43,417 nt of DNA, taken from contig WGMU01000097.1 of NCBI GenBank assembly GCA_016124895.1, positions 1 to 43,417 of the forward strand, given 5' to 3'. The translations under genes were made by a program, and so were the position numbers. The notes below the pieces were generated by a model. That model had not been told where the DNA came from, did not search any database, and was given only the letters and a program-made list of their open reading frames with translations. Shown here one piece after another: positions 38,990 through 42,318 of the stretch. The number at the start of each line of letters is the position of its first letter. Positions within the stretch are counted from its first letter, which is position 1. The DNA is from a bacterium (lineage in GTDB: Bacteria; Planctomycetota; Planctomycetia; Planctomycetales; Planctomycetaceae).

Positions 38990-39006
38990 CAGACGGGATG
39001 ATTTCG

Positions 39007-41106
39007 ATGGTGACCGCCTCGACCGGAACCTACACCGTTCTTGCCAGACGCTTCAGGCCGCAGGGCTTCGCGGATGTTGTCGGGCAGGGACACGTCGCTC
39101 AGGCTCTGCGAAATGCAATTCTGGCCAACCGTGTCGCGCATGCTTACCTGTTCACGGGGGCTCGCGGAGTCGGCAAGACGTCGACGGCCCGCATCCTCGC
39201 CAAGGCTCTGAACTGCCCGAACGCAGTCGATGGCAACCCGTGCAACGAGTGCGAAATCTGCGAAGGCATCGCGGCGGGCAACGACGTTGATGTGCTTGAG
39301 ATCGACGGTGCCTCGAACCGCGGCATCGATGACATTCGCCAGCTTCGAGCGAACGTCAACGTCAAGTCGATGCGGACGAAGTTCAAGCTCTACATCATCG
39401 ACGAAGTCCACATGCTGACGAAGGAAGCGTTTAACGCGCTGCTGAAGACGCTGGAAGAGCCGCCGCCAAACGTCAAATTCGTCTTCTGCACGACCGAGCC
39501 CAACAAGCTGCCCGATACGATTCTTTCGCGCTGCCAGCGGTTCGATTTCGGGACGATCGAGACAGCGAATATCAAAGGCCGGCTCGCTCAGATCGCTGAG
39601 GCGGAAGGCGTCCAGGTTGATGATGACGCGCTTGAACTTGTCGCGCGGCGGGCCGCCGGATCAATGCGGGACAGCCAGTCGATCTTCGACCAACTGCTGG
39701 CGTTCGGCGAGGAGCACATCACAGCGGGCGATGTCCACCGTCTGCTGGGGACGGCCAGCGATGACCGGCTGATTGCGATTGCCGACTCGCTGGTGGCTCG
39801 CGATCAAGCCGGCGTCCTCTCAACGTTTCACCGGGCAATTGACGGAGGAGTTCAGCTCGGCGAACTGACCGACCAGATCCTTTTCTACCTGCGCGATCTG
39901 ATGGTGCTCGCGTCAGGTGCCGTTGAGATTGAACTCTCGTCGGTCGGTCCCGGCAGTCGAGAGATGCTGACTAAACAGGCGAAGCAGTGGGGACTGCAGA
40001 CAATTGTTGCGGCGATGCAGATCCTCGCGGACACGAAAGGCCGGATGCAGCGGGTCACATATGGTCGAGCGCTGGCGGAACTGGCCCTCGTCCGCATCGC
40101 CCTGCTTGAGGATCTGACAGATCTCGATGGCCTGATCGAGCGGTTACGGAGCAGCGAACCAGTGACCTCGGACATTGCTGCCGTCGAAAAAAAAAATGAG
40201 CTACTGACTGCGGAACCGGACAGAGACCCGATCACCAGTGCTGAAGTGACACTGCCGGCCCATCCTTTGGAATCGGCGTCTGACGAGCAGTCACGCGACG
40301 TCGAGCCCGGCGGGGTTGAGCCCCTCGGCGTATCGGCTGAGGATTCCGCCATCGCTGCGTCGGACGAACCGGCGGTAACACACGCGGAATCTTCCGAAAC
40401 TCCGGCCGTTGATAAGTCTGCCGAATCAGCAAGTGGCGATTCCGTCGAGGTCGCCACTGACGAGCTGTTGGGGCAGCAGGTCGACGCGCTCGCCTCGTCG
40501 GTAGACTCAGCCAGCAGCACTTCGGTCGGCTCGCAATCATTGCCCTCGACCGACGTCAACACGGTCGCAGGGGCGGCGGCAAATCCAGTAAGTAGTGTCG
40601 AACCCTCTGCTGAGGAGCCTGAGGATTCGAGTGACCAGGAATCCCAGCGAGATGCCCCGACGGTCGTTGCGGGCCGCATTCTGATTAATCCAGAAGATGC
40701 CGAGCAGATATGGTCGAGTGTTGTCGCAGAAATCAGCGACATGCTGAAGAGCCATGTCAAGCAGGTCAGCAAAGCAGCAATTGCCGCGCCAAACAAGCTG
40801 GAGCTGACGTTTCCACGGAAGTACCATTTCAGCAAGCGGTACTGCGAGAAGCCCGAAGTCATCAGTCGACTGGAGCAGATCGCAGCCCGCATCACTGGTC
40901 AGCACCTGCGGGTCTCGCTGCTTGTGGGGGAAGAGGACGGGTCTGATGCGGCCAGCCCGCCACTGGATGAGCCGGCCCGGCAACCTGCTCGCAAGCGGCT
41001 GTACAAGCCGGAAGACGACGACTTCGTCGCGGTCGTGATGCAGACGTTTGACGCGGAATGCGTCCGCGTCGATTCACGGGCCGGTGGGGCCAGTCAGGCA
41101 GAGTGA
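39007..41106 (+). CDS. dnaX: DNA polymerase III tau/gamma subunit
   Basis: 699 residues from the ATG at 39007 (GGGA eight bases ahead; an ATG at 38998 has no SD). AAA+ clamp-loader subunit. Seen: YRPx-type start LARRFRPQGFADVVGQ, Walker A GARGVGKTS, zinc module CPNAVDGNPCNECEIC, Walker B IIDEVHML, sensor 1 CTTEPNKLPDTILSRCQRF. Domain III ends near residue 390. An acidic Ser/Glu/Val-rich linker covers about 397-550 and a C-terminal tau-type domain follows. At 40187-40196 ten A residues sit so that a -1 slip reads AAA TGA, predicting a 397-residue gamma-like product. ybaB and recR follow. Confidence 0.96.
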   Translation: MVTASTGTYTVLARRFRPQGFADVVGQGHVAQALRNAILANRVAHAYLFTGARGVGKTSTARILAKALNCPNAVDGNPCNECEICEGIAAGNDVDVLEIDGASNRGIDDIRQLRANVNVKSMRTKFKLYIIDEVHMLTKEAFNALLKTLEEPPPNVKFVFCTTEPNKLPDTILSRCQRFDFGTIETANIKGRLAQIAEAEGVQVDDDALELVARRAAGSMRDSQSIFDQLLAFGEEHITAGDVHRLLGTASDDRLIAIADSLVARDQAGVLSTFHRAIDGGVQLGELTDQILFYLRDLMVLASGAVEIELSSVGPGSREMLTKQAKQWGLQTIVAAMQILADTKGRMQRVTYGRALAELALVRIALLEDLTDLDGLIERLRSSEPVTSDIAAVEKKNELLTAEPDRDPITSAEVTLPAHPLESASDEQSRDVEPGGVEPLGVSAEDSAIAASDEPAVTHAESSETPAVDKSAESASGDSVEVATDELLGQQVDALASSVDSASSTSVGSQSLPSTDVNTVAGAAANPVSSVEPSAEEPEDSSDQESQRDAPTVVAGRILINPEDAEQIWSSVVAEISDMLKSHVKQVSKAAIAAPNKLELTFPRKYHFSKRYCEKPEVISRLEQIAARITGQHLRVSLLVGEEDGSDAASPPLDEPARQPARKRLYKPEDDDFVAVVMQTFDAECVRVDSRAGGASQAE
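40187..40199 (+). promoter_or_regulatory. Probable slippage site in dnaX (A10 followed by out-of-frame stop)
   Basis: Ten consecutive A from 40187. In the normal frame the codons are GAA AAA AAA AAT GAG. A -1 ribosomal shift, or insertion of one A by RNA polymerase, gives GAA AAA AAA AAA TGA. The stop at 40197-40199 would end the protein at about 397 residues, right after the clamp-loader domains. Confidence 0.65.
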
Positions 41107-41236
41107 TTTTTGTATAGAATCCTGATCAGCCGCCGAATCTGGCTGGTCCGGGCTCAGCAGGCAAATGCTCAGAGAGACTCAATCAGCTAGCCACACGCAG
41201 CCGCATCGGCTGCAGAATTCAACGACGGACGACAGC

Positions 41237-41602
41237 ATGTTCAAAGGACTCGGCGACCTGGCATCCATGATGAAGCAGGCCAGGGAGATGCAGAGCCGCA
41301 TGGCTGAAATGCAGGAGAAGCTCACGCAACTCCGCATCAAAGGCTCATCCGGCGGAGGCATGGTCATCGTCGAGACGAACGGTAAGCAGGATGTCCTGAG
41401 CTGTTCGATCGACCAGACACTGCTGGACGCTGGCGACCGCGAGATGCTTGAGGATCTGGTTGTTTCGGCGATGAACGATGCGGTCAACAAATCACGGATG
41501 GCAGCGGCGGAAGCGATGCAGGAAGCGGCTGGCGGACTGAATCTGCCGGGAATGGGCGACGCACTGTCGCAACTCGGCCTCGGACCAGGCGGCTCTGATT
41601 AG
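41237..41602 (+). CDS. ybaB: YbaB/EbfC family nucleoid-associated protein
   Basis: 121 residues from the ATG at 41237; the frame opens at 41165 but the added residues do not belong to the family. YbaB/EbfC is a small dimeric DNA-binding protein, commonly encoded between dnaX and recR as it is here. Seen: [18 protein letters not shown] (coiled helix), [19 protein letters not shown], and [19 protein letters not shown], with a Gly/Leu/Met-rich tail ([19 protein letters not shown]). Confidence 0.93.
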
Positions 41603-41697
41603 CACCGTTGCAGGGGATCGAGTCGGGATGCGGCGACGAAAGAGAACTCCAACTTGACGGATCATGGTCGGGCGACGGAACGCGGGGAATTTCAATC

Positions 41698-42318
41698 ATG
41701 AACAGACGGACGGTCGAATCGCATCCGTTTGGACCGGCGGTCACGAACCTTGTCGAACAGTTTTCGCGGCTGCCAGGGATCGGGAAGAAGTCGGCTGAGC
41801 GGCTGGCTCATCACGTCCTGGCGGCTCCACAGGGTGAGGCGCTGGCTCTGGCTGACGCCATTCGCGAGGTGAAGGCAACGATTCGAGCCTGCCGTGTCTG
41901 CTTTAATCTGACTCAGGAAGAAACCTGTCGCATCTGCTCGTCGCCGCAGCGCAACCACCATGTGGTGTGTATCGTCGAGCAGCCGCGGGACCTGATTGCT
42001 CTGGAAGCGTCGGGCTCGTACGACGGTGTGTATCACGTCTTGCGAGGCCGAATTTCTCCGCTGGAGGGAATCGGGCCAGAGGATTTGACGATTGACGCAC
42101 TCGTACGGCGCGTTCGACATGAGGGGGTTCAGGAACTGATCATGGCAACGAATCCGACGCTCGAAGGGGATGGAACAGCGTTGTTCATTTCCAACCTGCT
42201 GGCGTCAGATCCTGTGAGAATCACTCGGCTGGCTCGCGGGATTGCCTCCGGCAGTGTGCTAGAGTTTGCGAACCGGGAGATGCTTGCCGACGCGATGCGC
42301 GGCCGACAGGCATTCTGA
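41698..42318 (+). CDS. recR: Recombination mediator RecR
   Basis: 206 residues from the ATG at 41698 with GGGGA upstream. RecR acts with RecO/RecF to load RecA at gaps. Order: helix-hairpin-helix ([20 protein letters not shown]), a C4 zinc finger ([16 protein letters not shown], with both Cys pairs intact), and a Toprim domain ([39 protein letters not shown]). Length is normal. It follows ybaB by 95 bp. Confidence 0.96.

Follow-up and report, generated by a model that had tools for sequence, protein, structure and literature searches.

The best-known case of programmed RNA polymerase slippage on a cellular gene in bacteria is dnaX of Thermus. In Thermus thermophilus, transcriptional slippage takes place on a run of nine A (A9) with closing stops (PMC1088944, PMC5009743), the RNA:DNA hybrid of the polymerase spans 9-10 bp, and having two lysine tRNAs may have a bearing on why slippage is used (PMC5009743). 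In Escherichia coli, dnaX instead undergoes a -1 ribosomal frameshift at A_AAA_AAG (PMC5009743, PMC3711429), and in Caulobacter crescentus the gamma form of DnaX arises by proteolysis of tau (PMC5009743). The GeneTack survey lists 17 dnaX genes in 12 genera that consist of two open reading frames (ORFs), 12 of them with A7-A10, for which polymerase slippage was proposed (PMC3711429). In Blochmannia, a poly-A frameshift lies in the tau part of dnaX, beyond the gamma site, and correction by slippage was proposed (PMC3017870). This study addresses a run of ten A (A10) in the dnaX gene, encoding DNA polymerase III gamma/tau, of a planctomycete. The gene lies on contig WGMU01000097.1 of assembly GCA_016124895.1, a stretch of 43,417 nucleotides that was analysed as a whole and is referred to here as the window.

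The window ORF at 38998-41106 was identified as DnaX by TIGR02397 (441.7 bits; cut-off 250), with PF12169 and PF22608 also matched, and clamp-loader domain III as delimited by Pfam ends at residue 383. The run follows 14 codons after domain III, where the zero frame reads GAA AAA AAA AAT GAG (E397 K K N E). The -1 frame reads AAA AAA TGA, with the stop directly after the run, and the +1 frame meets a TGA three codons past it. The position of the A10 run and the immediate -1 stop given in a preliminary description of this DNA were confirmed by direct reading of the sequence, and the truncation at about 400 residues, just past the clamp-loader domains, that was predicted there holds in modelled RNAs. 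Modelled RNAs with 8/9/11/12/14 A would encode 399/402/400/403/401 aa, and those with 7/10/13 A would encode 701/702/703 aa. Because domain III ends at residue 383, the modelled short products retain domains I-III whole, and the analogy to gamma that was drawn for the truncated product holds.

We consider the A10 run to be a programmed transcriptional slippage site, with a probability of roughly 0.8. RNA polymerase would realign on the A/T run and generate a mixed pool of dnaX mRNAs in which the run is longer or shorter by one or more As. Full-length tau would come from RNAs with 10 or 13 A. In RNAs with 8, 9, 11, 12, or 14 A, no more than three sense codons would separate the run from a stop, giving a gamma-like DnaX of about 400 residues that would keep clamp-loader domains I-III and be without the C-terminal part. 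In other bacteria, this C-terminal part of DnaX binds the polymerase and the helicase. Slippage itself, its rate, the short protein, and the role of that protein are what we infer here from the sequence.

The locus resembles Thermus dnaX in having a single tau ORF, an A9-class run (of at least about nine A) near the end of the gamma part and after the clamp-loader domains, stops soon after the run in both other frames, and two lysine tRNAs. It differs in that the run is A10 and lies just past the midpoint of the gene (residue 397 of 702), that slippage is predicted, that the phylum is another one, and that within the planctomycete class both A9 and A10 occur and the site moves. With E. coli dnaX it shares one gene with two products (the short one being predicted here), a slippery heptamer (A_AAA_AAA), and a -1 stop directly after it. 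Unlike in E. coli dnaX, the run is longer and made of A alone, without AAG; stops are close in both frames, no Shine-Dalgarno-like motif upstream or hairpin downstream is enriched as a stimulator, and there are two tRNA-Lys genes rather than the single one that is associated with, although not strictly defining for, the E. coli type. The GeneTack genes likewise carry a poly-A run (mostly of 10 A) at the gamma/tau border, but there gamma is encoded in the zero frame and tau needs a slip, whereas tau is encoded in the zero frame of the window gene. Caulobacter crescentus reaches the same end, a short clamp-loader form, and no recoding run is described for it in the available text. The window dnaX is a known kind of system, found here in a new and large lineage. 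In the open-licence literature, covered by title and start of abstract and with the supplement of PMC3711429 lying outside this coverage, no report of dnaX slippage or frameshifting in planctomycetes was recognised.

Conservation of the run in dnaX of the class

To assess conservation, dnaX genes were collected at three levels. A search of relatives gave a dnaX match in 58/59 genomes, the window genome included, and 30 loci plus 28 more were taken from it (the repeats L066 and L067 were not counted). One genome scan gave 80 named dnaX loci, and a survey across the phylum gave a match in 359/392 sampled genomes (E 1e-50), of which 95 were read (30 loci from the survey itself, 5 already in the collection, and 60 picked by family). 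Over all dnaX loci, 13 duplicates were removed. The sole congener of the window genome (G001) yielded only a C-terminal dnaX piece (L059), and one further genome (G011) only a weak, paralogue-like match; both were left uncounted. The class set was assembled by hand from kinship and record titles, the class name Planctomycetia being inferred from the latter, and comprised 110 genes, of which 109 had the linker in view (L053 was dropped for its short linker).

An A9 or A10 run was found in 88 of the 109 distinct class genes, the window's included, and 1.3 genes would be expected from codon shuffles. Named carriers include records of Schlesneria, Gemmata, Isosphaera, Limnoglobus, Rhodopirellula, Aporhodopirellula, and Mariniblastus. 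In the linker and C-terminal region of the 109 genes, the run-length spectrum is two-humped (A5 63, A6 19, A7 3, A8 2, A9 62, A10 34), and no run of 11 or more A was detected there. Between domain III and the run lie about 8-60 codons (median 28), with one outlier at 149 (L006, counted among the 88); the run occurs in all three codon phases (A9: 3/35/24; A10: 0/29/5), and the sequences flanking it vary widely. Elsewhere in these 88 genes AAA is the minority lysine codon, at 370/960 (39%) in domains I-III, against 590/960 for AAG. Since the run appears in all codon phases and at shifting places, it seems to be the nucleotide run, and not a fixed peptide, that is kept across the class. Conservation of run and close stops in related planctomycetes, which the preliminary description had named as a way to check the site, is borne out, and its claim withstands that half of its refuting condition which called for a run not conserved in relatives.

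It was also argued in that description that a ten-A run would be unlikely in this genome unless selected, and this argument is weak by itself. In the window, A≥8 occurs only at dnaX (0.38 matches expected; its three overlapping matches were reached in 2/100 shuffles). The genome (8.13 Mb, both strands), however, contains seven runs of ≥9 A, two of them A10, and Markov models of window composition predict 4-13 genomic runs of ≥9 A and 0.8-2.9 of ≥10, so that finding ten A in a row within one gene or another is by itself no surprise. Long A runs were present in all 41 genomes sampled from the family, with 1-137 overlapping matches per genome. The improbability of the run was accordingly rejected as sufficient proof, and it is the conservation in dnaX, in contrast to the A9 of dnaE, that settles that the run is more than chance.

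The six other genomic runs of ≥9 A each cross at least one open frame of ≥90 codons. As general conserved sites, five were rejected. The dnaE A9 was kept in 1/30 loci (29 genomes), its own; the T9 in the gene of L064 in 1/20 loci, its own, with a separate A9 in L366 just past its match; the run in the integrase-like gene of L061 in 1/16 loci, its own; and the run in the gene of L063 in 2/8 loci (7 genomes), its own and that of a congener. The fifth lies in a gene for a 3-keto-disaccharide hydrolase/ThuA protein (L065, G000:C183:29628-29637), where A10 stands within one frame in the window genome; among 15 loci of 20, it was found in its own. In L386, from a genus (G007) of the same family as the window genome, A9 lies near a frame change between the two parts of the hydrolase/ThuA gene, and in L392 A10 lies past the end of the match.

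The near-chance number of genomic runs and the lack of conservation in dnaE are what would be expected if the dnaX run were neutral or acted at the protein level, as a Lys-Lys pair in a loose linker that gives no short product. We regard this as very improbable, because the dnaX run is kept in 88/109 genes against 1.3 expected, despite the AAG majority among lysine codons elsewhere, and stops lie close in both other frames.

Beyond the run, the zero frame stays open for 105-344 codons in 87 of the 88 run-bearing class genes. The exception is L181 (Thermoguttaceae RGIG7925), in which a TAA follows directly after A10 in the zero frame, so that gamma is encoded in the zero frame. The +1 frame of L181 holds the tau C-terminus, which matches a profile at E 4.7e-11 (34.3 bits; the composition bias is large, 14.2). 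L181 resembles the GeneTack type, but in the +1 direction. The profile was built from 108 class C-termini. A Myxococcales record (L211) likewise shows a reversed dnaX with A10, but there it is the -1 frame that carries the tau C-terminus (E 4.6e-13). These data bear on a further alternative, namely that the run is a phase-variable (contingency) tract that toggles tau by replication slippage at the DNA level. Long homopolymers mutate readily, and the run length does differ between A9 and A10 among relatives. However, tau is found in the zero frame in all run-bearing class genes except L181, and dnaX is an essential replication gene in the bacteria studied, so that we give this alternative hardly any credence.

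Two back-to-back runs occur in dnaX of one genus (g55), arranged as A9-TTG-A9 in L088 and L089 and as A9-TTG-A10 in L080-L083, L085, and L086. In their congener L079, A10 is followed by TGAAAAAATAAA.

Stops, stimulators, and direction of the shift

The main alternative to polymerase slippage is a programmed -1 ribosomal frameshift of the E. coli dnaX kind on A_AAA_AAA, ending at the TGA at 40197-40199. The preliminary description had offered both mechanisms, Thermus-type polymerase slippage and the E. coli-type ribosomal shift; the former is favoured by the present data and the latter disfavoured. The heptamer and the immediate -1 stop that a ribosomal shift calls for are both present in the window, and across the class the -1 stop is the nearer of the two. 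The median distance from the run to the stop is 2 codons in the -1 frame and 4 in the +1 frame, compared to 20 and 20 elsewhere in the same linkers, and both other frames are closed within 10 codons at 85% of the runs and at 9% of other linker places. When the codons past the run were shuffled (87 genes, L181 excluded; the first run was used where a gene has two), the mean stop distances rose from 2.1 (-1) and 7.6 (+1) codons to 20.4 and 29.1, respectively. None of 300 shuffles reached either observed distance, and the result was the same in 42 genes thinned below 70% identity. For a -1 ribosomal shift, the -1 stop alone would be enough, so that the closeness of the +1 stop as well favours a mixed RNA pool, which requires both.

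Elements that stimulate ribosomal shifting showed no excess in the 88 genes taken together. A Shine-Dalgarno-like motif before the run is not enriched (7/88 vs 8.9 expected), and the 50 nt downstream of the run show no excess of structure over controls (mean z -0.27 vs -0.28); at the window site, only a weak fold is predicted downstream (-10.6 kcal/mol over 60 nt). A stimulatory hairpin or Shine-Dalgarno element was therefore rejected as unsupported. Run length and tRNA content also weigh against the ribosomal shift. Seven As in phase would suffice for the ribosomal heptamer, yet A7 and A8 make up only 5/101 class dnaX runs of ≥7, and A9/A10 equals the length of the polymerase RNA:DNA hybrid (9-10 bp). 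Genes for both tRNA-Lys UUU and tRNA-Lys CUU are present in the genome. Lastly, L181 speaks for polymerase slippage, because a -1 ribosomal shift cannot serve the +1 direction, and L211 has its reversed layout in the -1 direction. Two directions within one family are considered a sign of transcriptional realignment (PMC3711429). Directly visible in the data are the sequence itself, a run length that is conserved, stops that enclose the run in both other frames, and a lack of ribosomal stimulators. Taken together, the evidence makes RNA polymerase slippage as in Thermus dnaX the most likely mechanism, and a ribosomal shift appears unlikely.

A second split gene and points against slippage

A VWA-domain gene (PF13768) of the window genome holds an A9 run at G000:C28:60740-60748 on the minus strand (L060, L273, L293:3241-3249). 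Its zero frame stops one codon after the run, and the -1 frame is open for 427 codons, with a weak TPR match below cut-off. Of 40 genomes with a match, 33 were read; 27 showed both parts and six did not (L282, L286, L298, L299, L301, and L306, with an A9 in L286). In 23 of the 27, the second part lies in the -1 frame with A9 (22) or A10 (1) at the change, and these 23 genes represent two families (19 and 4 genomes, the window genome included), of which all 23 genomes have the split. In the other four genomes, belonging to three other families, the gene is in one frame and has no run of ≥7 A. Among the split genes, the zero-frame stop is at a median of 1 codon and the +1 stop at 6, and a Shine-Dalgarno-like motif occurs in 2/23. 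In the two families, the long VWA product would be made only if one A were gained or the ribosome shifted by -1, and the gene is separate evidence that A9 sites would be functional in this genome and its relatives. In annotation, two separate pieces would be expected that hide a long protein.

Several observations weigh against slippage at dnaX or fit ribosomal shifting as well. Every A9/A10 contains A_AAA_AAA, which is itself a ribosomal shift heptamer, and a -1 stop closer than the +1 stop would be favoured by a -1 ribosomal shift, too. Raw folding energy is lower in the 50 nt before the run than in controls (-15.7 vs -12.2), although not beyond their own shuffles (mean z -0.25). All 23 split VWA genes call for a shift in one direction only (-1), and the criterion of PMC3711429 would take this as pointing to ribosomal shifting; since the direction is constant, the VWA gene alone does not separate slippage from a ribosomal shift.

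Conservation is also incomplete. Slippage is very likely at a nine-A or nine-T run whose length is the same in all homologues (PMC1088944); this applies here only in part, since A9 and A10 both occur and 21/109 class genes have no run, with at least 19 state changes on a quick FastTree tree, a rough figure as three of six outgroup rows fell within the class. Among 14 run-less class genes inspected by eye, no substitute site was seen beyond one A7 (L038) and short runs. The run is thus dispensable or at times replaced, and a situation as in Caulobacter possibly applies to the 21 genes. GC content is slightly higher in genes without the run (0.618 vs 0.587). Outside the class, where the survey was not exhaustive, a run of ≥9 A within 80 codons was found in only 14/76 genes of GC ≥0.45 and in 5/19 genes of GC <0.45; four more genes were too short to judge. 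The state changes on the tree may be read as those of an old dnaX site that was lost many times.

Three side observations were made, one on tRNA genes of the window genome and two on the dnaX collection. At G000:C84:8683-11720 (L267), 14 tRNA genes, many of them low-scoring, crowd into about 3 kb and may represent a mobile tRNA array. The dnaX of L160, whose record is titled Candidatus Kuenenia stuttgartiensis, falls among Planctomycetaceae on the tree, and the title or the binning may be wrong. In four loci of the phylum outside the class (L138 and L146 of family f30, L118, and L156), the DnaX frame ends 40-87 codons past domain III; they have no A run of ≥7, a ybaB-like sequence follows by eye, and the tau C-terminus is seemingly absent.

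Layout of the locus and implications

The features of the window dnaX and its neighbours are listed in Table 1. Homology in the tau C-terminus was detected as separate matches to query residues ~505-699 in many relatives.

Table 1. Coordinates of dnaX, of its candidate recoding elements, and of the neighbouring genes in the window.
Feature	Position	Strand	Basis
dnaX, DNA polymerase III gamma/tau, zero frame of 702 aa (full-length tau)	38998..41106	+	ORF; NCBIfam TIGR02397 and others
Clamp-loader domains I-III (residues 30-383), common to both predicted products	39085..40146	+	Pfam PF13177, PF22608, PF12169
A10 run, putative slippage site	40187..40196	+	direct reading; A9/A10 kept in 88/109 class genes
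TGA, -1 frame stop, would be reached by RNAs with 8, 11, or 14 A (399-401 aa)	40197..40199	+	
TGA, +1 frame stop, would be reached by RNAs with 9 or 12 A (402-403 aa)	40205..40207	+	
Part found only in tau: variable linker followed by a C-terminal region in which homology is detectable (~residues 561-699, from 40678)	40200..41103	+	
ybaB/ebfC homologue, directly downstream of dnaX	41165..41602	+	TIGR00103 over cut-off
recR; gene order dnaX-ybaB-recR	41608..42318	+	TIGR00615 over cut-off

Beyond the single locus, we find it rather probable that Planctomycetia use polymerase slippage on A9/A10 as a standing expression device. In most of the class, this device would give dnaX two products, from a site that has moved repeatedly; one genus has tandem double runs, and a rumen lineage has the reversed two-ORF form. 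The device would also serve at least one other cellular gene, that of the VWA-domain protein. In two families, its form of ~1300 residues would be made only if one A were gained or a -1 ribosomal shift had the same effect, although in three others the gene is a single ORF. If this is the rule in a bacterial class, the gamma/tau split would be under lasting selection outside model organisms. The class would then offer dozens of natural variants (A9, A10, double runs, the reversed layout, and losses), which could show the purpose of the short form and how polymerase slippage is tuned.
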